Shown in pieces: positions 23,620 to 59,368 of a DNA stretch of 64,000 nt. A model generated the notes under the pieces. That model saw only the letters and a list, made by a program, of their open reading frames with translations. It had not been told where the DNA came from and searched no databases. Source of the stretch: Pyrus communis. Lineage: Eukaryota; Streptophyta; Magnoliopsida; Rosales; Rosaceae. Both the position numbers and the translations under genes were made by a program. The stretch's first letter is position 1; every line of letters starts with the position of its first letter. The DNA is taken from NCBI RefSeq assembly GCF_963583255.1, contig NC_084805.1, positions 13,321,385 through 13,385,384 of the forward strand, given 5' to 3'.

Positions 23620-23708
23620 ATCTTCAAAAATAATACCTATGCTTTAAGAGTAAAAAGAAAAATGGGACTTGGGGGCACAGAAAATTAGAAACAAAAAACC
23701 AAACGAGA

Positions 23709-27372: not shown

Positions 27373-27427
<55 letters not shown>

Positions 27428-27768: not shown

Positions 27769-27908
27769 AATTGGAAAGAGCCTCTAAGAAAAGATTTGGA
27801 CTACTTGGATCTAACAAAAGATATGGCACAAAACCGAGCTCAATGGCGTTATCGGATTCATGTAGCTGACCCTACTTAGTGGGATAAGACTTTGTTGTTG
27901 TTGTTGTG
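27769..27908 (+). mobile_element. 5'-truncated RTE-type LINE tail
   Basis: One frame reads LDLTKDMAQNRAQWRYRIHV then ADPT and a stop, the conserved C-terminus of plant RTE-clade reverse transcriptases. It is followed by GGGATAAGACTTTG and a TTG microsatellite tail, the usual 3' end of these elements. It is cut at the left where it joins the UGT pseudogene. Confidence 0.75.
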
Positions 27909-37381: not shown

Positions 37382-39570
37382 TGTGAAACCCCGTCCCAAA
37401 TGTAGTGTAGTTTCCTATTGACAGATTTATGAAATTACCTTCTTGCCCTTGAGTTGACCTTGTTTGATCATCTCATTGAAACACGTAACTTTAAGTTTAT
37501 TAAATGATTTTTAAAGTACTTATCGCCACAAATGTGTAGGCATAAACATATTCAGATTCAGATTTATAACGAAGATTTTATGTTTGAAACGTCGAACATT
37601 TTTAGATATTTTCGTATTTCGTCTTTAGTGAACTCGTTTTCTGAGCCACTAAGGCCCACATGTCTTCCCTTTCTTTCCCATCCATGACCCCCTCCCCTTT
37701 TTTTTCTTGTTCTGATTTTTGCAAGGACTATCTCTGTTTCTCTTTCTCACTTTCTCTTCTTCTCTCTATTTCTCCCTGAGCTCTCTCTCACTCTCTCTGC
37801 AATCTCACTATCCTCTCTCTGAACTCACTCTCACCACAACAATGACCCCAAGACTTGGACGTTGAACCTCAAAACCCAAGCCAAAAACACAGCACCTCAA
37901 CCGTGGCAGTCACGGTGATCACATCCCCAACGAGCTCCAGTGGTTTTTGTGAATTGTCCAATGAAGGTAAACTTTTAGAAACTCTTGGGATGTGTTTTAA
38001 GAGTATATCAAAGCTTGTTTTAAGTTGTACATACGTGTTAATTGCATAAAATAGCTTGGAGTAGCTTTTCCTAATTTTTTGGCAAGCACCGCCACTTTTG
38101 AGGTATTTTCCAGCCAAACCATAGCGAGTTGGCCGGCGTGCAAGGTATCAATCTCTTCATCTTGTTGAGAACTACAACTTTTGTTTTTGTTTCAAAATGG
38201 ACCCCATGCCTTTAGGCCATGCAAGCTTGGGCCTTCGGCCCAAGGAACCCAAGCCCAGGACCTTAGGCCAGGCCCAGGACCTTAGGCCAGGCCCAGAACC
38301 CCAGGCCCAAGCTCAAACCCAGTCAGAACCTAGACCAAGCCAAAGCGTGGGCACACATGAAGGGCTACTGGTGCGTGGTGGCACGTGGGAGTACCAGAGG
38401 TTCCCCCTTATGTTTTTCGATGTCATGAATCCGTTTATGACGTTCGTTTTCTGAAATTCAATCGTTATAGTAGAGTTTTATTAATTGGACCATTTATGTG
38501 CTTAGGTGCGTTTATTAGCGGTGTTTCCGTCCTTCCTATTTCGCACAGCTCTTCGGCGACGGAGTATCTGTGAGTGAACCTCTTCTAAAATGCATATTTT
38601 ACTATTAGAAATGCATTCATGAAAAGCATGATTTAATGGTTACGTTTTATGAAATGTTTATGAGTAAATTAGATTTACACTTTATGAGATATCATGCTTT
38701 ACTGAGAATATTTTGGAATACCATACTTTATCAATTTTCATGTTCTTTGCAGTATATATGATGGATGCCTATATACTACAAAAATGTTTTAAGATATCAT
38801 GTTTGAGCTACTGAGCTCCGATAAGATATATGTATTATGTTTGGAAATATTATATTCATTGATTTTTGTGCTTATCTAGTGATCATTGTTCTGCCTATGG
38901 GCGATGACACTTATATTGGCTTCGGCCATGCATTGGTAGATGGCTCTAGTCGGAAGATATTATTATTAGCTTCGGCCGGGTGTTTGGTATGTGCCTTCGG
39001 GCGATCTTGATACCACTATTTAGCACATTATATAAAATATATGTTTTATGAGAGGTTTTATGGCATGTTAGGGTTTTCGGAAAACCTATTACATATTATG
39101 CTATGAGTTTTCATACACTTTGGGGGTTAGTACGTTGAATAACTGTTTCAATATTATTTAAATGTCAACTTGGTCCACTCATGTTTTGTTTTGTGCCCCC
39201 TCAGGACATAGGAACGAGGCATAGAGCTACGAGGCATTCCCCTACCACTGATAACGTGTCATCTTCTCTGTTTTTGACACTACTTGTAATAACACTTTCT
39301 GTCACACCTCCAGTTGTATTCTGAATTAGATGTATACTCTGAACCATGTCATGCATTATCACTATCTTTTTATTTGACAGCTAAATATTATTATATTATT
39401 TTAGTAAGGCTTATATTTGAATATTACATTGTGTAGTTTGCGCGAAATTTATATGCATGTTTCACATGTTCATGGCATATACATTCATTAAACAATTTGC
39501 GTCACCTTCGGGTGTCAGCTAGCACGTGGCCATCCCGTTGTCCCTTGAACATCGGGATCAGGGCGTGTCA
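37382..39570 (+). mobile_element. 3' LTR of the chromovirus
   Basis: It starts TGTGAAACCCCGTCCC directly after the polypurine tract that follows the chromodomain frame, and ends GATCAGGGCGTGTCA. It is 2189 bp. It contains CCAGGACCTTAGGCCAGGC in tandem near 38254-38295 and CT-rich leader-like DNA near 37730-37820. Its last about 900 bp (from 38673) form the outer end of the left arm of the inverted repeat. The 5' LTR is missing. Confidence 0.85.
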
Positions 39571-39734
39571 TAGACCACTCAACAAGTTCGAGAGATGAAG
39601 CTCCTGTTGGAAATTCAAAGCAAAATAAATGACAATAGTTACATATTGGTGAAATGGTTGTCTGCACAACCTTCCTTTTTTTTCAACAACATGTGTTTAT
39701 CTTTGAATGTGCAGCTGCCTTGATTGATTTTGTG

Positions 39735-39887
39735 TAATGCTAGGTAGACCAAATTTTTTAAACCAAATTTGCAAACTAAATGATTTGGTTGAGGAGACCA
39801 AATTTTCTAAAGCAAATAATGTGTCACCAAAAAAAAAAAAGTACGTTAATCGACACTTAATTAATAATTCAATCATCTACAACCAAA
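39735..39887. mobile_element. MITE of the TAATGCTAG family, copy 2 (truncated)
   Basis: It begins TAATGCTAGGTAGACCAAAT. Inside it has AATGATTTGGTTGAGGAGAC and a short A-run. The right terminus is lost where the copia sequence starts (CAACCAAA/GCATTG). The right-arm equivalent at 57985-58179 is complete. Confidence 0.75.
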
Positions 39888-42490
39888 GCATTGTTTAGAT
39901 CACATGAGCTATGGCAAGTTGTCAGTATTGGGTATGTTGAACCCACTATTGAGCAAGAAGTGGCCTACACTGCATATCCAAAGAACACTTTCAAGGACAT
40001 GAATAAAGGACAAGAAAACATTGTATCTTCTATGTCAAGGATTAGAAGATTCAACGTTTGAGAAGGTTGCAGAAGCAACAACCAGCAAGCAAGTTTGGGA
40101 CACTCTGAGCACAATTTACAAAGGAGTAGATCGAGTAAAAATAGTCCAGCTTCAATTATTAAGAGCATATTTTGAGGTTGTTCATATGAAATAGGGAGAA
40201 AATTTTCATACTACTACTCTCGACTACTTGCAGTCATGAATCAAATGAAAAGGAATGGCGAAAAGCTTGACAATGTTTGTGTTATGGAGAAAATCCTTCG
40301 ATCCCTCACATCCAACTTTGAGCATGTGGTGACTGCCATTGAAGAATCCAAGGATTTGGAGACGATGAGTGCAAAGGAACTGCTAGGATCCCTCCTAGCT
40401 CATGAGCAATGCATTCAGAAGAATGCAAGCACCACAATGTTAGAGCAAGCTTTGGAGTCAAAGTTGAACATTGACAAACCAAATGGAGGTCGTGGACAAT
40501 GGAACTCACATCGTGGGAGTTCATCCAATTGTAGCCAAATACGAGGTCAAAGAAGAGGTCAAGGCTATGCACAAAATCGAGGTTAGTCTTAAGAGTAGAG
40601 ATCTGCTTGAGGAAAGGCACATATCCAATGCCACAACTGCAAGGAATATGGACATTATGCCATTAAATGTTCATATAAACATGGTGAGCATGTTAACATG
40701 GTAGAGTCAAGTGGAAATTCTGGTGAGGAATTTACAGTCTTACTAGCACATCATGATTCCAATAGCGAACAAGATGTTTGGTATTTGGATTCTGGTGCAA
40801 GTAACCATATACGAAGGAATAAGGAGTTTTTTGCCGAACTCAAAGATGAGGCCTATACATCTATGAGTCTTAGTGACTCCTCAAAGATGCCAGTTGAAGG
40901 TGAGAAAATCAAGATCATCCAGAAAGATGGTAGAGAAAGATACATTTCTGATACCTACTACATACTAGGTATGAAGAGCAACATTCTGAACATTGGTCAA
41001 CTGCTCCAGAAATGATACGTTATACATATAGAGAATATGCTTCTTACTCTCAGGGATGCAAGGAGAAAGCTTATTGGAGGTATTTGAATGTCAAAGAACC
41101 GAATGTTCCCGTTGAATTTTAACACAAAGATTAAAAGTTTCAACATCAGTATGATGGAAGATGAGTCATGGAAATGGCATCTTCAGTTTGGCCATCTTCA
41201 TTTTAAGGGCCTAAAGTTGTTGTCAAGTGAAGGAATGGTTCATGGTCTACCCCAGATTGAAGCCACATGCCAACTATGTGAAGGTTACATGTTTGGTAAG
41301 CAAACACGGCTCTCATTTCATATTGGTGAAGAATAGAGAGCAAAGGCACCATTGTAGTTGGTGCAGACGAATATATATGGTCTGTTAGATCCCATGTCAT
41401 ATAGAGGTAATAGATATTTTATTACTTTCATTGATGATTTTAATAGAAAGACGTGGGTTTATTTTCTCAAGGAGAAGTCGGCTGCCTTGAGAGTTTTCAA
41501 GGAGTTTAAGGCACTCACAGATGCTGAAAGCAACCACAAGCTTATGGTTGTGAGATCAGATCGAGGTGGACAATACACCTCCAATGCTTTCCAAGCATGC
41601 TGCAAAGAGCAAGGAATTAGGCATCAACTGACTACTGCCTATACCCCACAACAAAATGGGACAACCAAGAGAAAGAATCAAACCATCATTGACATGACAA
41701 GGTCCATGCTTAAGGAGAACGATTTGCCAAAAAAATTGTGGGCATATGTTGTAGCTTGTTCAATTTATTTGTTGAATCTATGTCCAACAAAGAGTGTCAA
41801 GAAGATAACACCAAAAGAAGCTTGGAGTGGATACAAACTGAATGTTGCACACCTAAGAGTTTTTTAAATCTGTTGCATATGCTCAAGTTCCAGAAGCCAA
41901 AAGGAGGAGGCTCGATGATCGAGGTGATAATTGTGTGTTTGTGGGCTATAGTGAAGAGTCCAAGGCATACAAGCTTTACAACTCACTAACTGGCAAACTA
42001 GTAGTTAGTAGAGATGTCATCTTTAGTGAGGAAGTGACATGGAAGTGGAACAACAAAGAAGTCAGTAAGAGAAGATTGTTTCCACTAGTTTTGAAGAACA
42101 TGAAGTTGTACCACCTGTTAAGCTTAAGCAACAACCTGCTTAATCAATCATACCAACTTCATTGCATAGAACTACAAAGAGTGGTACTCAACTCCAGTGA
42201 TGTTAAAAAGTCTCACCGAGATATATAGACAAGAAAAAAAAGAAGTGGCCAACATTTTCTGCTTGTATGCAGACCACAAGCCTCTCTCATTCAATGATGA
42301 TGTGGAAAAAGATGTTGGAGAACATCCGTGGAGGAAGAAATCCATGCCATTGAGAAGAATGACACTTAGGAGTTGACAAAACTCCCACCAAATCAAAAGG
42401 TTATTGGTGTCAAGTAGGTGTACAAGATCAAAACACTGCAGATATAAGTGTAGATCGGTACAAATCAAGGCTTGTAGCGAAGGGTTACAA
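39888..42490 (+). mobile_element. Ty1/copia remnant, left arm
   Basis: Broken gag-pol in the order gag, zinc knuckle, protease, integrase, start of RT, with frameshifts throughout. Gag lies at about 39890-40590 (TSNFEHVVTAIEESKDLE, SLLAHEQ). A degenerate zinc knuckle lies near 40620-40680. Protease at 40698-41015 has the catalytic block WYLDSGASNHI. GAG-pre-integrase and integrase run from 41088 to 41867. RT is entered near 42330 and then breaks off at about 42490. LTRs and primer site are missing on this arm. Confidence 0.88.
41088..41867 (+). pseudogene. Copia GAG-pre-integrase and integrase core, left arm
   Basis: WKWHLQFGHLHFKGLKLLSS and CQLCEGYMFGKQ are the GAG-pre-integrase signature. 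After a stop (TAG at about 41334) the integrase core follows: YFITFIDDFNRKTWVYFLKE, VVRSDRGGQYTSNAFQ, and YTPQQNGTTKRKNQTIIDMT. The Asp residues of the DDE triad are visible (FIDDF and SDRGG), but the usual NG.AER glutamate region reads NGTTKRKN, so the Glu is replaced. The frame ends at LRVF where function would continue. It is not active. Confidence 0.85.
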
Positions 42491-44454
42491 GCTGTTGCCC
42501 CAGCAGCACAAGCCCAAGCCTTGTCCACTTGGCACATTACCCAATCTGTAACCCACGCTACAAAGTAGCCAAGTCAGGCCCAACGCGAGCCAGCCTAAGC
42601 CACTACCTCAGTAACGCAAGCCCAAGCAATTGCGGTATGAGAAGCAGCCCAACGTTCAAGGGCCCACGGCCAGCGCGTTTCTGAGCTGAGCCAAGGACCA
42701 ACATGCACGCTTGCCGCAACCTACTCCCATGGTGTCCCAAGCAGCCCAAGCTGGTCCAAGACTGATTCAACCATCTCGGCTCAAATATCTGGGCCGATGA
42801 TTGAACCGGGGGTCATTTTCACCCTATTCATCCGCGAAATTGACATTTTCCAACTTAAATCTCGCACGTTGAGTCCACTTCACTTCCACTACTTAAGGAG
42901 ACGCATTCCATCCAAGTTCTTCCAACCCAAATAGAGAAAAACACTTGTCTCAACAAGTTATAGAGTTCACAAGCACCCTCACACAACAAACGACCTTGGT
43001 GAATCAGCTTTTGCAACACATCGAGATGCAACATGCCCCTAATGAGGTGTCCCAAAGTAGGTAAGGGCAGGCGAAGAACCTCTCTAACAGCGTCCCGACA
43101 AGCAGCCACTTGACCAGCCATAAACCGAGCATTTCGGTAGTGTACACTCCCGACTGAGCCCCCAAGATAGCGTATACTTTCGTCTTAGCATGTGGAGGAA
43201 CGTGCACTCTCGGTTAGGCCCACGAACTAGTATATATTCATGGTTTAGGTCACACTCCGATAATCAACATGAGCAACCTTCCAAGCGAAGTGTTTATTCG
43301 TGGCTATGCCCGCAAGAAGCATCATCTACCTCACATCGGAGTAGGCAGCATGACGGACGAAGAAAAGCATTTACTCAATCTAACTCAAGTTTAATTGGTA
43401 GCATGTGAGAAATTCACTCGCCTGCTAAGAATGTACCATATACATCGCAGTCATGGCATAGACGAGCCGAACATATAAAAGAGCAGCCTAAACCAGCAGG
43501 TCAAGATCGAGGGCAGCTGAGAGCTCTGCCACCCTAACAAAGGCAAATTTAGGAAGAAGTAGAGAGGCTCTTCACCGAACGATTACGCGATGTCCAATGC
43601 AACAAAGCTACTGACAAGGCACTCCAATGAGACATAACCAAGATAAGCAGGTCACCTTTCAATGACAAGGTTGAGCAGACGGGACTATTCCACATAGATT
43701 GTCGAATACAAAGATTGCTTCTGCTCCAACAAAGGTAGCAACTCAGCCTAATGACGTGCCAGGGGCAAACGAGTACCAGAAAGACACACCACTCAACTAC
43801 CAAGAACCGAGGGCAGGCCTTGTTCTCAACACTCTAAATGATTCAATACTGAAGCAGCACATCATTAGTAGCCGAGCATCATGGACCTAGTAGTCCAATT
43901 GATATGCACAACCTAGCCCAAGCCAGCCCTAGCTCTGCTTACAAAACTGTGCCTATCTGCTCCACGACTCTCGCTGGACCTAGATCTGCCACCATGGCTC
44001 CTAACTGTGCCTACCTTCCACGGCTTCCGGCAGTCCTTAATCTATCACCATGGCTCCTAACCATGGTGATCTTGCATCACAGCTACCAGCCTTGTCGATC
44101 TCGCCCTAAGGCTCCTAATTGCGCCGACCAAGCCCATGACACTTCAAATTTCAAAGCATCCAACGACGGAGTAGAACACAAGGCTTTATTAGCAACCTCT
44201 CCTAGCGAAAGACTTAGCGGTGAAGAAGCTTGCAATTTATTCAGATTTTCAACTGATCACCAACCAAGCCTCAGAATGGCACATGATGAAACATCTAACG
44301 ATGGCACAATACTTGAAGAAAGTCTGAACTTACGTGAGTTCCACAAGTAACTCGAAGTCTCAAGCAGATCGTCAAACAAGACCTCACTAGCCGAGGATTA
44401 TTTCAGTTGTCCAGCAGTCCAACTTCCCTCAGCTGCACTCATGACAACGACTTT

Positions 44455-44735
44455 CATGCTCTCCAGTGCAAGAGGGTAAACTAATCCCCTAACACCCATC
44501 TGGGTAAGCTCTCCAGTACAAGAGGGTAAACTAATTGCTCTCCAGTGCGAAAAGGCGTAAACCAATCCCCCAACACCCATCTAGGTAAGCTTTCCAATGC
44601 GAGAGGGTAAACCAATTTCCCGACACCCATTTGGGTATGCTCTCCAGTGCAAGAAGATAAACTAATTGTTTTCCAGTGCGATAGGGTAAACCAATTCTCC
44701 GACACCCATATGGGTATGCTTTCTAGTGCGAGAAT
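44455..44735 (+). repeat. Tandem repeat, TCTCCAGTGCAAGAGGGTAA type
   Basis: A unit of about 40-65 bp built from CTCTCCAGTGC(A/G)AGAGGGTAAAC and CCC(C/G)ACACCCATCTGGGTA. At least five imperfect copies are present. The mirrored array is at about 54630-54900 in the right arm. Confidence 0.85.
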
Positions 44736-45762
44736 GCCACATAGCTCAAAAGATCGAATGCTTAAAGACCAACTAGGCAGCGAATGGTCAAGGGGTAGTA
44801 GCAACTTTGCACTCAATAATTCGTTCATTCGATACCTCATCTTCAACAGCTCCGATCTTGGCAGCTCCATCGTTGACTGCTCTATCTACGACAGTTGAGA
44901 AATCAAACTCAAGCAGTTTCCTTATTTTTGGTAACCAGCCTAGACAAGGTAGCCCAAGCCAATTCCTCGGTCCATGCTGAGCCAGTCCTTGGCTACAGTC
45001 AAGCCAAGAAACATAAGCGATGGCCCCTGCCACACCACCTCCTTGGCCTATGCCAAGCCAACTCCTGGCCTCTGTCAGCCGATGTGCCGCACCACCTCGA
45101 CAGCTGCCCTGCGACAGCACTACCCAAGAAGAAGACAAGGAGAATTAAGTTCTTCTAACATCGGTGCGGCGTGGAAAAGACAAAAAAAAAATCAACGAAA
45201 GACGGTTCTTTGCATGGGCAAGCAAAGAAGAGTGCTAAGGGAGGGAGAACAAATATCCTCTAGTTTTCTCTCTTTCTTGTAGGGACAAATAATTGCCCTC
45301 CGAAGTTGATTTAATCCCCTACTTAAGGTAGACTTAAATAGGCTTTGGAGGCGATTTATTTCCTTTTCCTAGAAGAATCTAATTCCAAGCCCAAGTGAGA
45401 ATCTGCATCAAAGCTAGAGATCTCTACAGCTGCTGCCATTTCCTGTGAGCAGCCCAGCAGTTGTGGGACATTTGTGGAGTAAAAACTAATCAAGAAAATT
45501 ATGGAGGTGACACATGTACTTTTGGGGTGAAAAAGGACAATATTACCCTCGAGACACACCAGAACTTCTACGCGCAAGCAGCAGACAATCATGGCACAAT
45601 CAAGGTCAAAAGTGATCAAAATAGGTTTTTATTCAAAACCTATTTCATCTATCCTCATCAAATCCTCCCCACAAGGTAACCTTCAATTTTTCATTCAAAA
45701 TAGGATTAATTACCTAAATTAATTGATTAATTCCCTAATTAATTAATTAATTTCCTAATTGG

Positions 45763-45796
45763 TTGCAAGATATTATGTTGACATAATATCTTGCAA
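45763..45796. repeat. Perfect 16-bp hairpin
   Basis: TTGCAAGATATTATGT and ACATAATATCTTGCAA are separated by only two bases. It is conserved with one change in the right arm near 53613-53646. It lies just upstream of the LTR-like TATA box, so it may mark an LTR end or promoter structure. Confidence 0.9.
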
Positions 45797-45981
45797 TTAC
45801 ACACAAAAGCCACCATATGTGGCCAGTTCCTATCTCTCCAAAAGGGCCGGCCACCCCTATAAATACCACCCCATTTCTCCAAAAACCTAATTTCAACTCT
45901 CTTGCAAAATTCTCCAAATTTCTCTGAACACTTTTTCCTCAAATTCTAACTTTGGCATCAGAGGTTCTTCGGCCAAAGCCA

Positions 45982-46036
45982 ACCCCACCCCACCCCCTCC
46001 CCTCCCCACCCCCCCCCCCCCCCCCCCACCCCCCCC
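45982..46036. repeat. C-rich tract
   Basis: Long runs of C broken by A and T, with one run of about 19 C (46010-46027). The minus strand is G-rich enough for quadruplex formation in principle. The length may be unreliable in the assembly. Confidence 0.85.
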
Positions 46037-46037
46037 A

Positions 46038-47147
46038 AATTCATTGTGGGTGCGTGAGGCTCTTGGCCTTGACCTAAGGTGTTAATTGTTTTGCAAGTGC
46101 ACTTTCATTCAAGAAGAAGAAGGCGGAAATTTGCATCCACAATTGTTACGTTGATGACCTTTTGATCTTCATGTGCATATAAGCTGTTCTGCTGCATTGT
46201 TTTATTTTCTTACAAGTTTCTGCTAGTGCTAAGGTGATATGGTTTTCATATACGATGTTTCAATTAGTACCATGCACATAGGGTTGTTTGACTCAATTCT
46301 TTTCGATCAGTTATAAACTTTTAGGTAATATTGTCGTTAGACTGAATCGAACCAAATGTTCAAAGTCTGTCATTAATCTTTAGTTTTGTAGTCTGATGTT
46401 GTTAAAGAATAATCTCACTCTCTTACCAACTTCAAGTCTCGGCATCTTTAACATTCGTAAATCCCCCATCTCCTGTCCTCAATAATTCTCTCCTTACAAT
46501 TGTAACTCGTGAGGGAGCCTTAGCACGAAAATTAAAGAATGTGGAACCAAGTGGCTTTAAGTGCATCCAACATTGTTTTGTGTCTAATTCTACCAAGTGG
46601 CTCTAAGTGCATCCGACATTCTTTTGTGTCTAATTCTTAGTCAGCAAGACCATCTCCCTACTCCTGATGTGAAAAATATGAATGTTGTTATTGCTCCCGT
46701 GAGATGAACTTAATTGGAGATGTAAATTTTGGATTTGATATTTTGTGTGTGTTTATATTTATGATGCTATATTTTTTATAAGTACTTCTTTAGAAATAGC
46801 GCTTCTACGAGCCAAAAGCACTTCTTTGTTTTTCTACCAAATGCAAATGAAAGCGTTTTTAGTCATTCCAAAAGCAATTTTAAACCGGCTCTGCATCTCT
46901 TTTGCATCTTGAATAGTAGATGCTCTTACATGCTACTTCGCTATTCTCTTTTAAGTATACGTGCTTACGGTTTTTGGTCAATGAACATGGTCCTAGGAGA
47001 AATTCCTGTTTCTTTATTGATCAATCAACATCTTCACTTGCTTAATTTGAAATGATTGTTTATATTATTGGTTTATGTTTTTGGCACTATATAAAACGTT
47101 AACCCCGAAAGACTAAAACAATTATATTTGAAAAATGGTTTCAATAC

Positions 47148-47150
<3 letters not shown>
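46038..47150. other. Duplicated UGT 5' flank, left arm
   Basis: 46145-47070 matches 27915-28960 and the reverse of the right arm. There is no coding region. A direct repeat of TTGTGTCTAATTCT...AAGTGGCTCTAAGTGCATCC lies near 46540-46640. Confidence 0.65.

Positions 47151-47191
<41 letters not shown>
47151..47191. repeat. CT microsatellite, left arm
   Basis: About 20 CT units. The equivalent site in the right arm (52746-52851) has about 53 units of the complementary GA repeat. Confidence 0.95.
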
Positions 47192-47195
<4 letters not shown>

Positions 47196-47639
47196 GCCAT
47201 TCTTTTCTTTAGTCATTAGATTGAACAAATCAAAGCAAAACTAAGAAACAGAATTAAGATAAAACAAAAGAAAACCAAAAATCAAAACTAGAAAAGTCGC
47301 CTAGTCGATGAAAAATAGTATTCACAATAACTTATTTTATTTTATTTTATTTCATTTTTTAATTACGGCAACGAGTACATAACTTTTCTTTTTCTTGATT
47401 TGAATAGGTTTTCAAGAACCATATTTCTCTTTTTGGACCTTTTAATATGCATCAAAGAGATGTATCCAGATTTTGACAAAAAAAGAAAAAAAGAAAAAAA
47501 AGAAGAGACGTATCCAAATTGCTTTGGTTCAAAACTAAGAACCTTCCAAATTATCCTATGTGTAAAAATGTGACTTGCCTGCCAAGGAATCAACATTTGT
47601 AGTTTCGTGGACCGATTGTGCACTACATCTTGCTCCTCC

Positions 47640-47646
47640 TATATAA
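47640..47646 (+). promoter_or_regulatory. TATA box of UGT copy B
   Basis: TATATAA, 71 bp before the ATG, in the same CTCCTATATAATTGG context as copy A. Confidence 0.7.
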
Positions 47647-47716
47647 TTGGCTTCTACATTTTCACCTAAATATTCAAACACATTTCCGTGCAAAGCTTCA
47701 AATTTTGGAGCAGAAA

Positions 47717-49219
47717 ATGGAGAAAGGACAGCTGAGAGCCTACAAAGCTCACTGCTTGATCTTACCCTATCCGAGCCAAGGCCACATTAATCCGATGCTC
47801 CAATTTGCCAAGCTTCTAGATCACAAAGAAGTGAGAGTCACACTCGTGACGACTCGCTTTCTCTACAAGACAATGCACAGCTCAGGATCGAGTTGCGCAG
47901 CTTGGGAGACCATCTCCGATGGCTTCGATGATACTGGGAAAGGGGACACAGAAATACACATCTATTTGGAGAGGTTCCGGCAAGTGGGGTCAAAACATTT
48001 GGGCAAGCTTCTTGAGAAGCTTTCGAATTCAGGTTCCCCCGTGGATTGTGTTGTCTATGATGCATTCATGCCTTGGCCTTTGGATGTTGCCAAGAAGCTT
48101 GGAATAGCGGGGGCAGTTTTCTTCACTCAGTCTTGTGCCGTTGACAATGTCTACTACCATGTCTACAGAGGGCTGTTGAAGCTTCCTCTTGCTGATGGTC
48201 AGTCTCAAATTTTGCTTCCCGGGTTGCCAGCGCTTGATCCTTTGGACTTGCCATCGTTTGTTTCGGATTGTGGATCTTACCCAGCTGCCTACAGAGTGCT
48301 TGTGGGTCAGTTCTCGAATGTCGACAAAGCTGATTGGGTCCTGTGCAACACATTTTATGACTTGGAAGTACAAGTGAGTACATTGTGAAGTTCTCTCACT
48401 CATTTTTAGTCACAGTTCCATAGCTTTGATTTGATTAATTTTTAATTAGTTCAAGTATAAATTAATCTAATTGCTATTAATTTTTCTGCTTAGGTGGTGG
48501 ATTGGATGGCTAAGCTTTGGCGATTGAGGACCGTTGGACCAACTATACCGTCCAACTACTTGAATAAGCGACTCAAAGATGACAAAGAATACAGTGTCAA
48601 CCTCTTCAAATCAGACAATGATGCATGCATAAAATGGCTAAACGAGAGGCCAAAAGGTTCCGTAGCTTATGTATCGTTTGGCAGCCTAGCAAAACTCGAA
48701 GATGAACAAATGGAGGAGCTGGCTTGGGGCTTGAGGAGGAGCAAAAGTAGTTTCTTATGGGTGGTTAGAGAATCAGAAGCAACCAAGGTCCCAAAAGGGT
48801 TTATCGAGGAGACATCCGAGAAGGGTTTAGTGGTTTCGTGGTGCCCCCAAATGGAGGTTTTGGCTCACGAGGCGGTTGGATGCTTCGTCACACATTGCGG
48901 TTGGAACTCGACTTTGGAGGCATTGAGTTTGGGGGTTCCGATGGTGGCATTGCCACAGCGGAGTGACCAGCATACGAATGCCAAGTACATTATGGATGTG
49001 TGGGAAGTAGGGGTTAGAGCTCCAACTGATGAGAAGGGGGTTGTAAGACAAGTAGTAGTAAAACAATGTATAAGTGAAGTAATGGAGGGGGAGAGAGGGA
49101 AGGAAATACAGAAGAACGCTGCGAAATGGAAAGAATTGGCCCGTAAAGCCGTGGATGAAGGCGGAAGCTCTGACAAAAACATTGACGAGTTTATTGCAAA
49201 ACTGCAGACCCAAAGCTAG
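47717..49219 (+). CDS. UGT74: UDP-glucosyltransferase, UGT74 family, copy B
   Basis: Exons 47717-48373 and 48494-49219, with a 120-bp GT-AG intron at the same codon boundary as copy A, give 460 residues. Catalytic His23 (PSQGHINP) and Asp115 (CVVYDAF) are present. The PSPG box at 335-378 has all key positions (WCPQ, HCGWNS, Glu361, Asp377, Gln378) except residue 375: the box ends PQRSDQ where copies A and C have PQWSDQ (codon CGG at 48959-48961). The role is expected to be cytosolic transfer of glucose to a small acceptor; the acceptor is unknown. It lies in the left arm of the inverted repeat and faces copy C tail to tail. Directly after the stop is a short LINE-like insertion shared with C. 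ATG choice follows the family start MEKGQLRAYK. Confidence 0.93.
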
Positions 49220-49226
49220 TGATGAA

Positions 49227-49436
49227 ACCTAACCCCTGTCCCCATCTTTCCCTTGTATTTTTGTTGGTTTTGTTTATAGAATAGTAAAGTTTATGTCTTT
49301 TCTTCTTTATGTATTTTTTTTATCATTTTTTTCTTGTATTATGAGGAGTTTAGTTTATATCCTCCTGCTTCAGTGTGCCTTTTTTTTCTTTATCAATAAA
49401 ATTCTCCTCATATTGTCAAAATTATTCTAAAAAAAA
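49227..49436 (+). mobile_element. Short LINE-like retroposon in the 3'UTR of copy B
   Basis: A 210-bp insertion ends in an A-run and contains TTTATCAATAAAATTCTCCTC, resembling the 3' end of plant L1 LINEs. It is flanked by the 14-bp direct repeat AAGCTAGTGATGAA at 49213-49226 and 49437-49450. The left repeat contains the TAG stop codon of copy B. Copy A has the uninterrupted site. Confidence 0.85.
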
Positions 49437-49737
49437 AAGCTAGTGATGAAGTCCAACAAAATCGAATTGAATAATTATCTTGGTTTGTAGCAAAAGAATC
49501 GAATATTTGTGTTGGTCCAACTCGACCTTTGGTCTCAACTTATGTAAGAGTTGCACTAAAATCATATCCTAATCGAGCTGGTCAAAGAATCATGGGACCA
49601 TAGGCTAAAAGATATCTTTTTTTTTTTTTTTTTACATAAAATCGATCTCTAATAGAGATTTGAGTCAAAATACCATGGGACCTACCGGGTTCAAATCCAG
49701 CCATACTTAGCCAGCCACCTCCCTCTCCGACGATATC

Positions 49738-50235
49738 CAGTTATTATCTATCAGAGTAGTTATCTTGGAGTTTAATTAAATCAACAAATAGATTTTTTTT
49801 ATCCAAACAAGATTGTAGTTGGATTCCATCTTGTCATATGGCCTTCATGCATGGTTACGGGTGAATATATCAACATGGGGTTTGCTTAGAGTTGTTGGAT
49901 GCATGGTCTTCATGCATGCATTGGATATGCGTCTGCAATGTGTGGGGCATATAGGCATTGAGAAAAACAAGATGATTGTTTTGGATGTGAAAAGAACCGT
50001 GTGTGACCATCCAACAAATTCAATGACGTGAAACCAAGGTGATTATTCCAACTTTGACTTATCTTTACCCCATCATTGATGTGAAAACTTAACATGGGGT
50101 TTGGGGATCATTCTTTTTCTTTAATTAATTCTCTAAGTTAATTAGACAAAGACATCTTTGTTGGGGGTTTGGGGAAGAAGGAAGGCTGGGTATGGGGAAG
50201 AAGGAAGGTTGGGTTTTGGGGAAGAAGAATGGCAG
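49738..50235. other. Spacer at the centre of the inverted repeat
   Basis: About 500 bp with no counterpart on the other side. It has two near-identical GGTTTGGGGAAGAAGGAAGG-type units at about 50165-50230 and a direct repeat of GGTCTTCATGCATG-like sequence near 49840-49915. No gene was recognised. Confidence 0.6.
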
Positions 50236-50537
50236 GAATACGTCGGAGAGGGAGGTGGCTGGCTAAGTATGGCTGGATTTGAACCCGGTAGGTCCCATGG
50301 TATTTTGACTCAAATCTCTATTAGAGATGGATTTTATGTAAAAAAAAAAAAAAAAAAGATATCTTTTAGCCTATGGTCAAATGATTCTATGATCGGCTCG
50401 ATTAGGATATGATTTTAGTGCAACTCTTACATAAGTTGAGACCTAAGGTTGAGTTGGACCAACACATATATTCGATTCTTTTGCTACAAACCAAGATAAT
50501 TATAAAATTCGATTTTGTTGGACTTCATCACTAGCTT

Positions 50538-50745
50538 TTTTTTTTAGAATAATTTCGACAATACGAGGAAAATTTTATTGATAACGAAAAAAAAATACAC
50601 TTAAGTGGGAGGATATAAACCGAACTCCTCATAATACAAGAAAAAATAATAAAAAAAATACATAAACAAGAGAAGAGATAAACTCTACTATTCTAGAAAC
50701 AAAAACAACAAAAATACAAGGGAAAGATGGGTACAGGGGTCAGGT
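50538..50745 (-). mobile_element. Short LINE-like retroposon in the 3'UTR of copy C
   Basis: This is the mirror of 49227-49436, flanked by TTCATCACTAGCTT at 50524-50537 and 50746-50759, the reverse complement of the copy B target repeat. The same insertion at the same base shows B and C descend from one insertion-bearing copy. Confidence 0.85.
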
Positions 50746-50752
50746 TTCATCA

Positions 50753-52252
50753 CTAGCTTTGGGTCTGCAGTTTTGCAATAAACTCGTCAATGTTTTTGTC
50801 AGAGCTTCCACCTTCCTCCACAGCTTTACGGGCCAATTCTTTCCATTTCGCAGTGTTCTTCTGTATTTCCTTCCCTCTCTCCCCCTCCGTTACTTCACTT
50901 ATACATTGTTTTAGTACTACTTGTCTTACAACCCCCTTCTCATCAGTTGGAGCTCTAACCCCTACTTCCCACACATCCATAATGTACTTGGCATTCGTAC
51001 ACTGGTCACTCCACTGTGGCAATGCCACCATCGGAACCCCCAAACTCAATGCCTCCAAAGTCGAGTTCCAACCGCAATGTGTGACGAAGCATCCAACCGC
51101 CTCGTGAGCCAAAACCTCCATTTGGGGGCACCACGAAACCACTAAACCCTTCTCGGATGTCTCCTCGATAAACCCTTTTGGGACCTTGGTTGCTTCTGAT
51201 TCTCTAACCACCCATAAGAAACTACTTTTGCTCCTCCTCAAGCCCCAAGCCAGCTCCTCCATTTGTTCATCTTCGAGTTTTGCTAGGCTGCCAAACGATA
51301 CATAAGCTACGGAACCTTTTGGCCTCTCGTTTAGCCATTTTATGCATGCATCATTGTCTGATTTGAAGAGGTTGACACTGTATTCTTTGTCATCTTTGAG
51401 TCGCTTATAGTAGTTGGACGGTATAGTTGGTCCAACGGTCCTCAATCGCAAAAGCTTAGCCATCCAATCCACCACCTAAGCAGAAAAATTAATAACAATT
51501 AGATTAATTTATACTTGAACTAATTAAAAATTAATCAAATCAAAGCTATGGAACTGTGACTAAAAATGAGTGAGAGAACTTCACAATGTACTCACTTGTA
51601 CTTCCAAGTCATAAAATGTGTTGCACAGGACCCAATCAGCTTTGTCGACATTCGAGAACTGACCCACAAGCACTCTGTAGGCAGCTGGGTAAGATCCACA
51701 ATCCGAAACAAACGATGGCAAGTCCAAAGGATCAAGCGCTGGCAACCCGGGAAGCAAAATTTGAGACTGACCATCAGCAATAGGAAGCTTCAACAGCCCT
51801 CTGTGGACATGGTAGTAGACATTGTCAACGGCACAAGACTGAGTGAAGAAAACTGCCCCCGCTATTCCAAGCTTCTTGGCAACATCCAAAGGCCAAGGCA
51901 TGAATGCATCATAGACAACACAATCCACGGGGGACCCTGAATTCGAAAGCTTCTCAAGAAGCTTGCCCAAATGTTTTGACCCCACTTGCCGGAACCTCTC
52001 CAAATAGATGTCTATTTTTGTGTCCCCTTTCCCAGTATCATCGAAGCCATCGGAGATGGTCTCCCAAGCTGCGCAACTCGATCCTGAGCTGTGCATTGTC
52101 TTGTAGAGAAAGCGAGTCGTCACGAGTGTGACTCTCACTCCTTTGTGATCTAGAAGCTTGGCAAATTGGAGCATCGGATTAATGTGGCCTTGGCTCGGAA
52201 AGGGTAAGATCAAGCAGTGAGCTTTGTAGGCTCTCAGCTGTCCTTTCTCCAT
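50753..52252 (-). CDS. UGT74: UDP-glucosyltransferase, UGT74 family, copy C
   Basis: Minus strand, exons 52252-51596 and 51475-50753, with a 120-bp GT-AG intron, give 459 residues. One codon is lost in exon 2: SNYYKRL where A and B have SNYLNKRL. His23 (PSQGHINP), Asp115 (CVVYDAF) and a complete PSPG box with PQWSDQ are present, so it looks catalytically competent. It also reads KLLRLRT where the others have KLWRLRT. It is almost identical to copy B and points toward it, with stop codons about 1.5 kb apart across the spacer. The cytosolic glucosyl transfer role is inferred from family; the acceptor is unknown. The upstream TATA box and promoter mirror those of copy B. Confidence 0.93.
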
Positions 52253-52322
52253 TTTCTGCTCCAAAATTTGAAGCTTTGCACGGAAATGTGTTTGAATATT
52301 TAGGTGAAAATGTAGAAGCCAA

Positions 52323-52329
52323 TTATATA
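52323..52329 (-). promoter_or_regulatory. TATA box of UGT copy C
   Basis: TATATAA on the minus strand, 71 bp before the ATG at 52252, in the conserved CCTATATAATTGG context. Confidence 0.7.
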
Positions 52330-53599
<1,270 letters not shown>

Positions 53600-55318
53600 T
53601 TTTTGTGTGTAATTACAAGATATTATGTCAACATAATATCTTGCAATCAATTAGGAAATTAATTAGAAAATTAATTAATTAATTAGGAAATTAATCAATT
53701 AATTTAGGTAATTAATCATATTTTGAATGAAAAATTGAAAGTTACCTTGTGGGGAGGATTTGACGAGGATAGATGAAATAGGTTTTGAATAAAAACCTAT
53801 TTTGATCACTTTTGACCTTGATTGTGCCATGATTGTCTGCTGCTTGCGCGTAAAAGTTCCGGTGTGCCTCGAGGGTAATATTGTTTTTTTTCACCCTAAA
53901 AGTACACGTATCGCCTTCATAATTTTCTTGATTATCTTTTACTCCACAAATGACCCATAACTGCTGGGCTGCTTGCCGGAAAGGGCAACAGCTGTAGAGA
54001 TCTCTAGCTTTGATGCAGATTCTCATTTGGACTTGGAATTAGATTCTTTTAGGAAAAGGAAATAAATTGCCTCCAAAGCCTATTTAAGCCTACCTTAAGT
54101 AGGGGATTAAATCAACTTCGGAGGGCAATTATTTGTCCCTACAAGAAAGAGAGAAAACTAGAGGATATTTGTTCTCCCTCCCTTAGCACTCTTCTTTGCT
54201 TGCCCATGCAAAGAACCGTTTTATTTTGGGTAGTGCTGTCACGGGGCAGCCGTTGAGGTGGTGCAGCATATCGGCTGACAGAGGCCAGGAGTTGGCTTAG
54301 CATAGACCAAGGAGGTGGTGTGGCAGGGGCCATCGCTTATGTTGCTCGGCTTGACTGAAGCCAAGGACTGGCTCGACATGGACCGAGGAATTGCCTTGGG
54401 CTGCCTTGTCTGTGCTGCTTGCCAAAAATGAGGAAACTGCTTGAGTTTAATTTCTCAACTGCCTTAGATGGAGCAGTCAAAGATGGAGCTGCCAAGATCA
54501 GAGCTATTAAAGATGAGGTATCGGATGAGCGAATTATTGAGTGCAAAGTTGTTGCTACCCCTTGACCATTCGATGCCTAGTTGATCTTCAAGCATTCGGT
54601 CTTTTGAGCTATATGGCATACTCGCACTAGAGAGCTTACCCATATGGGTGTCGGAGAATTGGTTTACCCTCTCGCACTGGAGAGCAATTAATTTATCCTC
54701 TTGCACTGGAAAGCATACCCAAATGGGTGTCGGGGAATTGGATTACCCTCTCGCACTGGAAAGCTTACCTAGATGGGTATTGGGGGATTTCTTTACCCCA
54801 TCTCGCACTAGAGAGCAATTAGTCTACCCTCTCATACTGGAGAGCTTACCCAGATGGATGTCGAGGGATTAGTTTACCCTCTTGCACTAAAGAGCATGGA
54901 AGTCGTTGTCATGAGTTCAGCTGAGGAAAGCTGGACTGCTGGACAACTGAAATAATCCTCGGCCAGTGAGGTCTTGTTTGACGATCTGCTTGAGACTTCG
55001 AGTTGCTTGTGGAACTCACGTAAGTTCAGACTTTCTTCAAATATTGTGCCATCGTTAGATGTTTCATCATGTGCCCTTCTGAGGCTTGGTTGGTGATCAG
55101 CTGAGAATCTGAATAAATTGCAAGCTTCTTCACCGCTAAGTCTTTCGTTAGCAGAGGCTGCTAATAAAGACTTATGTTCTACTTCATCATTGGATGCTTT
55201 GAAATTTGAAGTGTCATGGGCTTGGTTGGCACGATGAGGAGCTTTAAGGCAAGATTGACAAGGCTGGTAGCTGTGGTGCAAGATCAACATGGTTAGGAGC
55301 CATGGTGATATATATCTC
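53600..55318 (-). mobile_element. Gypsy-type element remnant, right arm
   Basis: Mirror of the left-arm element: hairpin at about 53613-53646, LTR-like region, and CTCTCGCACTGGAGAG-type tandem repeats at about 54630-54900. The gag-like pieces seen in the left arm at 42990-43700 are absent because a segment of about 1.8 kb is missing at about 55310-55318. Confidence 0.65.
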
Positions 55319-57700
55319 GGTGAGACTTTTTAAAATCACTGGAGTTGAGTACCACTCCTTGAAGTTATGTGCAATGAAGTTGTTATGATTGATTAAGCAA
55401 GTTGTTGCTTAACAGGTGGTACAACTTCAAGTTCTTCAAAACCAGTGGAAACAATCTTCTCTTACTGACTTCTTTGTTGTTCCACTTCCATGTCACTTCC
55501 TCACTAAAGATGAAATCTCTACTAACTAGTTTGCCAGTTAGTGAGTTGTAGAGCTTGTATGCCTTGGACTTTTCACTATAGCCCACAAATACACAATTAT
55601 CACCTCGATCATCGAGCCTTCTCCTTTTGGCTTCTGGAACATGAGCATATGCAACACACCTAAAAAACTCTTATGTGTGCAACATTCAGTTTGTATCCAT
55701 TCCAAGCTTCTTGTGGTGTTATCTTCTTGACACTCTTTGTTGGACATAGATTCAACAAATAAATCGAACAAGCTACAACATATGCCCACAATTCTTTTGG
55801 CAAACCGTTCTCCTTAAGCATGGACCTTGTCATGTCAAGGATGGTTCGATTCTTTCTCTTGGTTGTCCCATTTTATTATGGGGTATAGGTTGTAGTCAGT
55901 TGATGCCTAATTCCTTACTTCTTGCAGTATGCTTGGAAAGCGTTGGAGGTGTATTCTCCACCTCGATCTAATCTCACAACCACAAACTTGTGGTTGCTTT
56001 CAGCATCTGTGAATGCCTTAAACTCCTTGAAAATGCTTAAGGCAGCCAATTTCTCCTCAAGAAAATAAACCCACGTCTTTTTATTAAAATCATCAATGAA
56101 AGTAATAAAATATCTATTACCTCCATAGGACATGGGATCTAACAGACCATATATATTTGTCTGCACCAACTGCAGTGGTGCCTTTGCTCTCCATTCTTCA
56201 CTATTATGAAATGAGAGCCGTGCTTGCTTGCCAAACACATAACCTTCACATACTTGGCTTGTGGCTTCAATCTGGGGTAGACCACAATCCATTCCTCCAC
56301 TTGACAACAACTTTAGGCCCTTAAAATGAAGATGGCCAAACTGAAGATGCCATTTCCATGACTCATCTTCCATCACATCGATGTTGAAACTTCTAATCTT
56401 TATGTTCAAATTCAACGGTAACATTCGGTTCTTTGACATTCAAATACATCCAATAAGCTTTCTCCTTGTATTCCTGATAGTAAGAAGCATATTCTTTATA
56501 TGTATAATGTATCATTTCTGGAGCAGTTGACCAATGCTTAGAATGTTGCTCTCCATAACTAGTATGTAGTAGGTATCGGAAATGTATCATTCTCTACCAT
56601 CCTTCTAGATGATCTTGATTTTCTCACCTTCAACTGGCATCTTTGAGGAGTCACTAAGACTCATAGATGCATAGGCCTCATCTTTGAGTTCAGCAAAAAA
56701 CTCCTTATTCCGACACATGTGGTTACTTGCACCAGAATCCAAATACCACTTGACTCTACCATGTTAACATGTTCACCATGTTTATATGAACATTTCATGG
56801 CATAATGTTCATATTCCTTGCAGCTGTGGCACTGGATATGTGCCTTTCCTCGAGCAGATCTCTACTCTAAGACTAACCTCAATTTTGTGCATAGCCTTGA
56901 CCTCTTCCTTGACCTCATCTTTGGCTACGATTGGATGAACTCCCACGACGTGAGTTCCACTGTCCGCAACCTTCATTTGGTTTGCCAATATTCAACTTTG
57001 ACTCCAAAGCTTGCTCTAACATTGTGGTGCTTGCATTCTTCTGAATGCATTGTTCGTGAGATATGAGGGATCTTAGCAGTTCCTCTACACTTATCATCTC
57101 CAAATCCTTGGATTCTTCAATGGCAGTCACCACATGCTCAAAGTTGGATGTGAGGGATTGAAGGATTTTCTCCATAACACAAACATTGTCAAGCTTTTCG
57201 CCATTCCTTTTCATTTAATTCACGATTGCAAGTAGTCGAGAGTAGTAGTCCGAAAATTTTCTCCCTATTTCATATGAGCAACCTCAAAATATGCTCTTAA
57301 TAATTGAAACTGGACTATTTTTACTCGATCTACTCCTTTGTAAATTATGCTCAGAGTGTCCTAAACTTGCTTGCTGGTTGTTACTTCTGCAACCTTCTCA
57401 AACGTTGAATCTTCTAATCCTTGACATAGAAGATACAATGTTTTCTTGTCCTTTATTCGTATGTCCTTGAAAGTGTTCTTTTGATATGCAGTGTAAGCGG
57501 CTTCTTGCTCAATAGTGGGTTCAACATACCCAATACTGACAACTTGCCATAGCTCATGTGATCTAAACAATGCTTTGAATTGGATGCACCATCTTTCATA
57601 ATTTTCTTTCTTCAATGTGGGAACCTAGAGCTGCACCAAGTTGGACGCCATAACTGTTGCACTTGCCAGAATAGAGTTCTAGCTCCGATACTAATTGTTG
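55319..57700 (-). mobile_element. Ty1/copia remnant, right arm
   Basis: Minus-strand copy of the left-arm copia element. From the 5' end: gag at about 57615-56915 (ENYERWCIQFKALFRSHELW, LRSLISHEQCIQKNA), zinc knuckle near 56850-56780, protease near 56760-56600 (WYLDSGASNHMC), GAG-pre-integrase and integrase at 56439-55915, and integrase tail at 55789-55538. Frameshifts and stops occur, though gag is better preserved than on the left. RT is absent. Upstream at about 57675-57710, AACAATTAGTATCGGAGCTA looks like an LTR end followed by an initiator-tRNA-Met type primer site. Confidence 0.85.
55915..56439 (-). pseudogene. Copia GAG-pre-integrase and integrase start, right arm
   Basis: A 174-codon open frame with ESWKWHLQFGHLHFKGLKLL, VCEGYVFGKQARLSFH, then RYFITFIDDFNKKTWVYFLE and VVRLDRGGEYTSNAFQ. 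Here GAG-pre-integrase and integrase are in one frame, whereas the left-arm copy has a stop between them. It ends at AYCKK-stop before the rest of the integrase. It is not functional alone. Confidence 0.85.
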
Positions 57701-57984
57701 GTATTTAAAGTTTAACTCAACACTGAAATATATGGGTGATGAGTTTACAAACTATCACACTTACAATTCACTCACTTTGAAACTAAATCGACAGAAAGAA
57801 AGAAGCAGCAAGTCTTAGAGAAAGAAAAAAAAATACTCTGATATATTAGAAAAGTTTACAACTCTTATTGTTGGAATAGGGATGTCTACACTCTCTCTTA
57901 TAGAGATTTTACAAAACATACTACAACATAGCATTAAATGTTATCCAAGTAAAGTCAAATATAGCTGTTGTTTAAAATCAAGAG
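57701..57984 (-). mobile_element. Probable copia 5' LTR fragment, right arm
   Basis: The sequence immediately upstream of the primer-site-like motif on the minus strand ends TACCAACA. It contains GGAATAGGGATGTCTACACT on the plus strand. Only one LTR is seen, and its outer boundary next to the MITE is not certain. Confidence 0.5.
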
Positions 57985-58179
57985 TACTGCTAGGTAGATA
58001 AAATTTGCAAACTAAATGATTTGGTTGTAGATGATTGAATTATAAATTAAGTGTCGATTAACGTGCTTTTTTTTTTTTTTTTTTTGCAACACATTATTTG
58101 GTTTAAAAATTTTGGTCTCCTCAACCAAATCATTTAGTTTGCAAATGTGGTTTAAAAAAATTTGGTCTACCTAGCATTA
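57985..58179. mobile_element. MITE of the TAATGCTAG family, copy 3
   Basis: Left TACTGCTAGGTAGA and right reverse complement TAATGCTAGGTAGACC form the termini. Both inner arms contain GCAAACTAAATGATTTGGTT. It is 195 bp with a T-run in the middle, and is complete in this arm. Confidence 0.8.
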
Positions 58180-58346
58180 CACAAAATCAAACAAGGCAGT
58201 TACACATTCAAAGATAAACACATGTTGTTGAGGAAAAAAAAGGAAAGTTGTGCAGACAACCATTTCACCAATATGTAACTATTGGCATTTATTTTGCTTT
58301 GAACTTCCAACAGGATCTTTATCTCTCGAACTTGTCGAGTGGTCTA

Positions 58347-59368
58347 TGACACGCCCTGATCCCGATGTTCAGGGGACAACGGGATGGCCACGTGATGGCC
58401 GACACCCGAGGGTGACGCAAACTGTTTAATGAATGCATATGCCATGAACATGTGAAACATGCATATAAATTTCGCGCAAACTACACAATGTAATATTCAA
58501 ATATAAGCCTTACTAAAATAATATAATAATATTTAGCTGTCAAATAAAAAGATAGTGATAATGCATGACATGTTCAGAGCATACATCTAATTCAGAATAC
58601 AACTGAAGGTGTGACAGAAAGTGTTATTACAAGTAGTGTAAAAAACAAAGAAGATGACACGTTATCAGTGGTAGGGAAATGCCTCGTAGCTCGAATCGTA
58701 TGCCTCGTTCCTATGTCCTGAGAGGGCGCAAAACAAAACATGAGTGGACCAAGTTGACATTTAAATAATATTGAAACAATTATTCAACGTACTAACCCCC
58801 AAAGTGTATGAAAACTCATAGCATAATATGTAATAGGTTTTCCGAAAACCCTAACATGCCATAAGGCACATACCAAACACCCGGCCGAAGCCAATAATAA
58901 TATCTTCCAATTGTAGCCATCTACCAATGCATGGCCGAAGCCAATATAAGTGTCATCGCCCATAGGCAGAACAGTGACCACTAGATAAGCACAAAAATCA
59001 TTATCGTATATAATGAGCTAAATAGTGGTATTAAGATCGCCCGAAGGCACATACCAAACACCCGGCCGAAGCCAATAATAATATCTTCCAATTGTAGCCA
59101 TCTACCAATGCATGGCCGAAGCCAATATAAGTGTCATCGCCCATAGGCAGAACAGTGACCACTAGATAAGCACAAAAATCATTGAACATAATATTTCCAA
59201 ACATAATACATATATCTTATCGGAGCTCAGTAGCTCAAACATGATATCTTAAAACATTTTCGTAGTATATAGTCATCCATCATATATACTGCAAAGAACA
59301 TGAAATTTGATAAAGTATGGTATTCCAAAATATTCTCAGTAAAGCATGATATCTCATAAAGTGTAAAT
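58347..59368 (-). mobile_element. Chromovirus LTR, 3' portion, right arm
   Basis: It starts TGACACGCCCTGATCCCGAT, the reverse complement of the LTR end at 39570, and follows the left-arm LTR outward to about 38673. The remaining 1.29 kb of the LTR and the pol gene are not present on this side. Confidence 0.85.
58863..59187. repeat. Tandem duplication, period 181 bp
   Basis: AAGGCACATACCAAACACCC begins at 58863 and again at 59044, and the units stay virtually identical for about 140 bases, to AAGCACAAAAATCATT. The left-arm LTR has the block once in full, so the duplication happened after the arms separated. Confidence 0.9.

Follow-up and report, generated by a model that had tools for sequence, protein, structure and literature searches.

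A giant inverted repeat in a UGT74 gene cluster of pear: a probable record of old duplication, gene conversion and loss at the centre

Known inverted gene pairs and the pear locus

In plants, gene silencing and copy-number change arise repeatedly from inverted gene pairs, whose history is seldom readable. We analysed such a pair in pear (Pyrus communis): a giant inverted repeat carrying two UGT74-like genes tail to tail, located in the stretch C3:13321385-13385384 (the window, 64 000 nt in total; positions below count from its start). The structure is of a known kind and its history is unusually legible, as a miniature inverted-repeat transposable element (MITE) with an empty site, a cut repeat and a third gene copy point to a sequence of events, to the arm that is probably the original and to a sharp-ended conversion tract. 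We consider the locus largely explained, with good probability as an old inverted segmental duplication in the pear UGT74 cluster, followed by drift of the arms, gene conversion and a deletion at the centre. New here are the conversion-like UGT core, a second right arm (R′) past an assembly gap and the longer centre found with R′. In a literature search at the level of titles and abstracts (pear inverted duplication, conversion or glycosyltransferase; pear UGT74) no published account of the locus was met among the papers listed.

Among the closest described systems, VIM4-VIM2 and PAI4-PAI1 are likewise inverted plant pairs of close paralogues, and the VIM pair shows structural variation of its centre between lineages, as the pear pair probably does between haplotypes; in the Arabidopsis accession Cvi-0 an intergenic deletion in VIM4-VIM2 enabled read-through and small interfering RNAs (siRNAs) (PMC13213937). 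The PAI4-PAI1 genes are arranged tail to tail like those of pear, whereas the VIM genes are head to head; both pairs are described as making siRNAs, while the pear pair is known from DNA sequence alone (PMC13213937). Compared with VIM and PAI, the pear arms are 9-11 kb long, laden with transposable elements and mostly 5-6% diverged. The soybean I locus, CHS1-3-4, resembles the pear locus in having inverted arms of ~11 kb with genes for enzymes of specialised metabolism, and it is poorly assembled in reference genomes, a point in which the pear locus can be likened to it; unlike the pear arms, the soybean arms are identical, hold three CHS genes each, are 5.71 kb apart and have been shown to yield siRNAs (PMC6710647). 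Evidence of partial gene conversion from arm to arm, as proposed for pear, is described for the palindromes W.P1 and W.P2 of the willow W chromosome, which are sex-linked and non-recombining, with 20-kb stretches of >99% identity (PMC7023750); the pear tract, in contrast, spans 1.4 kb in a locus not known as sex-linked. Inverted arms around a short loop, as in pear, are what the yeast fold-back model predicts, although the mechanism has been tested in yeast and pear shows the end product only (PMC10622511).

The inverted repeat

Self-BLASTN of the window gave collinear minus-strand blocks linking 38673/59368 to 49736/50238. The repeat comprises:

38673..49736, + strand: left arm (L), probably the original; 11,064 bp by self-BLASTN, with an outer dispersed repeat
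50238..59368, - strand: right arm (R), probably the inverted copy; 9,131 bp, the repeat at its outer end stopping at 59368
49733..50240, no strand: centre (loop), the spacer between the arms
40176..41867, + strand: degenerate copia fragment with gag (40176-40586) and integrase (41358-41867), with a mirror-image counterpart in R

The main blocks are 376-2587 bp long with identity of 91.4-96.4%; since the longest (2587 bp) has 96% identity and a bit score of 4193, a chance origin of the match is out of the question. The spacer between the BLAST arm ends is 501 bp. By eye, the match ends between 49732 and 49733 and between 50240 and 50241, the few terminal bases of the BLAST arms beyond 49732/50241 being chance matches. 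Two opposite collinear arms enclose a unique spacer, as in an inverted segmental duplication, and homology ends at sharp outer breakpoints (38673 and 59368) with unlike flanks. Global alignment of L and R gave 416 mismatches in 8471 gap-free columns (mean divergence ~5%); a three-way L/R/R′ alignment, which gives 415 L-R differences, was used for the analysis of the core tract.

The sequence-only reading of this DNA had proposed the giant inverted repeat, and both its coordinates and its sizes for arms and spacer were right. It had also listed an ordered content common to the arms: this holds for the UGT gene, the (TC)n microsatellite, the copia fragment and the MITE end at the inner end of the arms, which also share a dispersed repeat at the outer end. 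The gypsy element was not confirmed, as the open reading frame (ORF) concerned, 36809-37339, lies outside the left arm; Pfam assigns this ORF an SH3 domain of Tf2-1-like type, plus a chromo match below the cut-off. The copia-type gag and integrase were identified with Pfam in the left arm, their right-arm counterpart from the alignment only. That the structure has lasted some time is borne out by the common ordered content together with later private indels. The notion of an inherently unstable palindrome, on the other hand, does not fit: with arms ~5% diverged (up to 8.8% per 500 columns) and a spacer of 0.5 kb (~1.3 kb in the probable older form), the stem is mostly imperfect. Overlooked in that reading were the near identity of the UGT genes and the second right-arm copy past the gap.

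UGT74 gene copies

The UGT74-like copies in the window are:

47717..48373, + strand: left copy, exon 1 (best protein match Malus baccata, 91%)
48494..49219, + strand: left copy, exon 2 (encodes the UDPGT domain and a PSPG box in which R replaces W)
51596..52252, - strand: right copy, exon 1
50753..51475, - strand: right copy, exon 2
31052..32553, + strand: third copy (T), outgroup to L and R (exons 31052-31708 and 31828-32553)
27041..27869, + strand: fourth copy, fragmentary

The stop codons of the left and right genes are 1.53 kb apart, and the two copies have stretches of 395 and 285 bp that show no difference; they are thus close, near-identical inverted gene copies of the kind seen in siRNA-producing pairs. 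Open frames are present in four genes (left 460 aa, right 459, T 460, R′ 459), and a UDPGT domain, a PSPG box and close relatives named UGT74-like place them in the UGT74 family. Protein identity is 97% between L and R and 89-90% between either of these and T; to the Malus protein it is 95% for T and 91% for L and R. A genome search with the query 47300-49220 (37 matches; 26 of 26 candidates scored) found identity of at least 93% over >130 bases for the four copies L, R, T and R′ only. The remaining matches were at most 85% identical, save fragments of 124 and 72 bases (92% and 90%) as well as three short matches, 35-43 bases long, at 93-95%. The 72- and 124-base fragments are located at C3:13413318-13413512 (window ~91934-92128), 28 kb past the window.

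The PSPG tryptophan is replaced by arginine, at 48959 in exon 2, in the left copy alone among the four. The motif was matched in 115 of the 120 homologues listed, with W in 103, F in 5, R in 3, M in 2, S in 1 and I in 1; judged by these, arginine at this position is rare, not unique. With this change, the left enzyme is predicted to be weak. As far as function can be read from the sequence, these genes appear to be extra UGT74 copies.

A low-divergence core and gene conversion

Centred on the UGT genes is a pair of tracts with few L-R differences:

47522..48958, + strand: low-divergence tract, left; probable gene-conversion tract with 9 of 1431 sites different
51014..52444, - strand: low-divergence tract, right; counterpart of 47522..48958

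Divergence in this core is 0.6%, compared with 406 differences in 7040 sites (5.8%) elsewhere; per 500 columns it is 3-9% outside the gene and 0.4-2.6% across it. The best low segment had a log-likelihood gain of 49.4, while the maximum in shuffled data was 12.8 (0 of 200 shuffles reached the observed value).

One could attribute the similarity of the UGT core to purifying selection or to locally slow mutation, all the more as the tract is coding sequence and R-R′ differences are also somewhat lower in the core (8 of 83). Still, sites with little coding constraint are as similar as the rest of the tract: synonymous, intron and 5′ sites differ at 4 of 611 positions (3 synonymous, 1 intronic and none in the 5′ part) versus 73 of 1594 in the noncoding flanks next to the tract (Fisher p 7e-7). 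Amino-acid changes between L and R are no rarer than silent ones, with 16 nonsynonymous (Ka 0.015) and 3 synonymous (Ks 0.010) changes, and the gene is not mutation-cold, because T differs from both arms, synonymous divergence (Ks) between L and T being 0.125 in the same gene. Transitions account for 291 of the 406 differences outside the core; when transversions only are counted the dip stays, with 5/1431 in the core versus 115/7040 elsewhere (p 4e-5) and 27/1594 in the adjoining flanks (p 0.0002). In a weaker test, a drop of L-R and R-R′ divergence by an equal factor was contradicted by core:outside counts of 9:358 against 8:75 (Fisher p 0.006). Neither constraint, tested at synonymous and noncoding sites, nor methylation-driven transitions, tested by the transversion-only control, found support as a cause of the dip, and we give constraint or a low mutation rate only a slim chance. 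Because the dip recurs at silent and noncoding sites and in transversions taken by themselves, arm-to-arm gene conversion of the UGT core is the best reading of this excess identity, which is confined to ~1.4 of 8.5 kb.

Private indels and the original arm

Private length differences of at least 8 bp in the L-R global alignment were counted. Left-only stretches are 1817, 592, 68, 67 and 25 bp long; right-only stretches are 446, 119, 64 (microsatellite) and 12 bp long. The largest are:

42226..44042, + strand: 1817-bp left-only stretch, absent from R and R′; probably deleted from R
45821..46412, + strand: 592-bp left-only stretch, absent from R and R′; a paralogue of its part 46147-46412 lies near 27.9 kb
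57578..58023, - strand: 446-bp right-only stretch, in R and, judging by match spacing, in R′; not in L

The sequence-only reading had both arms gaining private indels. Such indels are indeed present in both, but two of the larger supposed gains (1817 and 592 bp) are probably losses from the right arm. The 1817 bp were probably lost from R because related copies of the copia family cross the left edge of the stretch, the edge on which this deduction depends: with the query 42000-42500, 39 of the 39 other matches listed (best 40 of 178 candidates) run past 42226, covering query bases 1-491 at 81-82% identity. As to the outer ends, the left boundary is inside a dispersed repeat that other copies cross, e.g. 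C1:20295612, with 85% identity over query bases 23-701; the right-arm match to this repeat starts only at query base 274, which is position 38673. The left-arm UGT gene has the orientation of T and of the 27-kb fragment. Because the outer repeat continues past the left arm, the UGT orientation is that of the cluster and some of the sequence missing from R exists in relatives, the left arm looks like the original and the right arm like its inverted copy. From 39654 on, with the core left aside, R and R′ agree against L at 318 sites, whereas L and R agree at 35 and L and R′ at 37; this dominance of R=R′ indicates that L split before R and R′, and recent copying of the left arm from R is ruled out by the same counts.

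The right arm also contains a perfect 140-bp direct repeat (58863-59002 and 59044-59183).

The centre and the second right arm

At the centre and beyond the gap the following features are found:

49222..49436, + strand: retroposon-like insertion with a poly-A end and flanking repeats AAGCTAGTGATGAA; 3′ of the UGT stop, in both arms, not in T
49560..49732, + strand: MITE-like element, left end (~175 bp), cut at ...CTCCGACG
50241..50414, - strand: counterpart of this MITE-like end in R, truncated at the identical base, with an approximate outer limit
64766-77242, direct orientation, 15 kb downstream: second right arm R′ with loop and right flank, beyond the window (C3:13385385 onward)

The 3′ flank of the T gene reads GCAC-TAA-TAGG, an empty site near 32668, while both arms have GCAC-TAA followed by the element end. 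The TAA target duplication, the empty site in a paralogue and the many genomic copies identify the element as a MITE. It is tentatively called PIF/Harbinger-like; its ends were compared by eye for terminal inverted repeats of that superfamily. Each of five MITE-bearing loci fetched has matches to both ends, and four of them (C2, C9, C5 and C6) show these ends in the expected order. The MITE was inserted before the duplication, as both arms carry its left end.

A run of 200 N at exactly 64001-64200 follows straight after the window, and R′ stands past it, with identity to the window of 98.7-98.9% in the arm and 96.7% in the right flank. R and R′ differ at 83 of 7488 arm columns (~1.1%), counted from 39654 on, since the first three-way block (~39146-39653) is misaligned owing to the absence from R′ of 585 bp (58644-59228, including the 140-bp direct repeat); the R-R′ figure for the outer arm, 101/2995, includes this misaligned block, and L-R differences were counted over all columns. 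Genome-wide, the loop part 50000-50240 (within the query 50000-50600) has full-length matches solely here and beyond the gap.

The contig past the gap begins, at 64201-64537, with the right end of a MITE of the same kind, followed by TAA-TAGG and by a flank that is 87% like that of T over 115 columns. As the right end is there and the left end is in both arms, a + strand UGT gene to the left of 64201 is implied; most likely, this contig holds the native downstream sequence of such a gene, then the loop, then R′. With the MITE right end and the UGT-type flank, the R′ centre is ~0.75 kb longer than that of the window. The window haplotype has apparently lost this ~0.75 kb, from the point where the arms stop matching. 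Cleavage at the stem-loop boundary as the cause of the deletion is a guess, and one junction is no proof of it.

We take R′ to be, most likely, the allele of the other haplotype, left in the assembly as an overlap. The R-R′ difference resembles pear heterozygosity (1.79% in d'Anjou, from k-mers, and 2.17% in Danxiahong), and the assembly GCA_963583255.1 (drPyrComm1.1; hifiasm primary, purge_dups, YaHS, 145 gaps) is described as 'not fully phased' (PMC11803386). In addition, contig 1 ends in a high-copy element that begins at 62750 and is absent from R′ at the matching point; for the element sequence 62750-64000 the best 40 of 7736 candidates are 93-97% identical apart from one short piece. With R′ probably an allele, the number of UGT genes counted for this cluster in the assembly may be one too high.

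Two other origins of R′ were considered and dropped. Simple tandem duplication of a unit 49732-64764 fails because what follows 62749 has no second copy after 77242, and because 64201-64764 resembles the downstream flank of a + strand UGT gene. A form of R′ that has no left arm, the loop being joined to TTAAAG, was given up when 64201-64537 proved to be the MITE right end.

Alternative origins of the structure

If contigs of the two haplotypes, or the halves of a chimeric read folded back on itself, had been joined tail to tail, the repeat would be an assembly artefact, for which a contig gap 4.6 kb past the right arm and incomplete phasing could be cited. We regard this as very improbable: arms with 5% divergence and many private indels are too unlike for a read chimera, haplotypes would stay homologous outward instead of stopping at 38673/59368, the window has zero N, and the junction of loop and right arm recurs in a separate contig past the gap. 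A true further duplication, with at least two inverted units one after another, would place R′ where the scaffold has it, direct and 15 kb downstream, and would account for the right-arm UGT, the loop and the right flank each being present twice. Yet R′ starts 0.56 kb after an N gap, its arm differs by an allele-like ~1.1%, its contig starts inside a MITE, as a trimmed overlap might, and the high-copy element that ends contig 1 is missing from it; on this indirect evidence we consider such a duplication unlikely. Even less probable, in our view, is the inversion of one of two older copies in direct tandem, without inverted copying. The cluster does hold direct tandem UGT copies (T and the one at 27 kb), but such an event would be expected to leave behind the rest of the split copy, with a loop-like piece in it, whereas the loop part searched is found at full length only at the centre and at R′ and no third loop is present within the 164 kb compared; besides, the outer repeat continues in L and is cut in R only.

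Proposed history and age

The preferred explanation, inverted duplication followed by drift, conversion and central deletion, would run as follows. A + oriented UGT74 gene would have gained the retroposon-like insertion 3′ of its stop and then, further on, the MITE with its 3-bp TAA duplication. A break downstream of the MITE may have been followed by fold-back or template-switch synthesis restarting inside the MITE, by which ~11 kb would be copied outward in inverted orientation, ending in the dispersed repeat and forming the right arm; in yeast, break repair is known to yield fold-back inverted duplications (PMC10622511). The arms would then have drifted to 5.8% outside the gene core, the right arm losing 1.8 and 0.6 kb, and arm pairing would have led to conversion of ~1.4 kb with the UGT gene at its middle, bringing divergence there back to 0.6%. 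Finally, a deletion of ~0.75 kb on the assembled haplotype would have taken the rest of the MITE and the native flank, both kept by the R′ haplotype. The locus would thus be a convergent UGT74 pair exchanging sequence, accompanied by the upstream T copy.

At a mutation rate of 7e-9, a divergence of 5.8% gives an age of about 4 million years. The Populus rate of 2.5e-9 per site and year (PMC7023750) gives about 12 million years. The true age may be lower, because much of the divergence is in transposon-like, transition-dominated sequence.

Several points weigh against this history. The whole of it is read from one assembled sequence, and fold-back is deduced from geometry, whereas sister-chromatid fusion would give a similar product. 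The left arm beside R′ is postulated, none being seen, and 150-220 bp of MITE interior, sized from other copies, are likewise unseen at the locus. C17, which resembles the contig start most closely, has the MITE ends in reversed order, perhaps because two elements are neighbours there. The MITE in the left arm is cut at the same base at which the right arm starts, which is not what a random deletion would be expected to produce. The genome-wide loop search covered 50000-50240, and the left half of the loop was compared with the surrounding 164 kb only. As regards conversion, core sharing is 6 sites for L=R, 1 for L=R′ and 7 for R=R′ (binomial p 0.125), too few for the event to be dated or given a direction.

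Possible silencing by the pair

One may ask whether the UGT pair is read through the shortened centre, giving a hairpin RNA and siRNAs that silence UGT74 genes. The tail-to-tail genes and their identical runs, the probable central deletion on the assembled haplotype and the parallels in Arabidopsis VIM4-VIM2 and PAI4-PAI1 and in the soybean CHS inverted repeat speak for this idea. On the other side, all four UGT copies keep open frames, so that none is a plain pseudogene source, and we hold such silencing to be unlikely. A wider conjecture, to which we attach still less weight, is that pear is polymorphic for long- and short-centre forms, that conversion keeps the stems alike and that deletion at the stem-loop boundary would switch on a hairpin silencing UGT74.

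Neighbourhood

A SKIP22-like F-box gene (23634-25190) is 95% identical to its Malus baccata match, and the ORFs 940-1335 and 7821-8360 look like related fragments. These ORFs would form a second tandem family beside the UGT genes; of the two given to Pfam, only 23634-25190 had an F-box match. Outside the arms, the stretches 20597-22234 and 59660-61281 are inverted with respect to each other and 75-84% similar; they are probably not part of the duplication, since 59652-60100 is a dispersed repeat.

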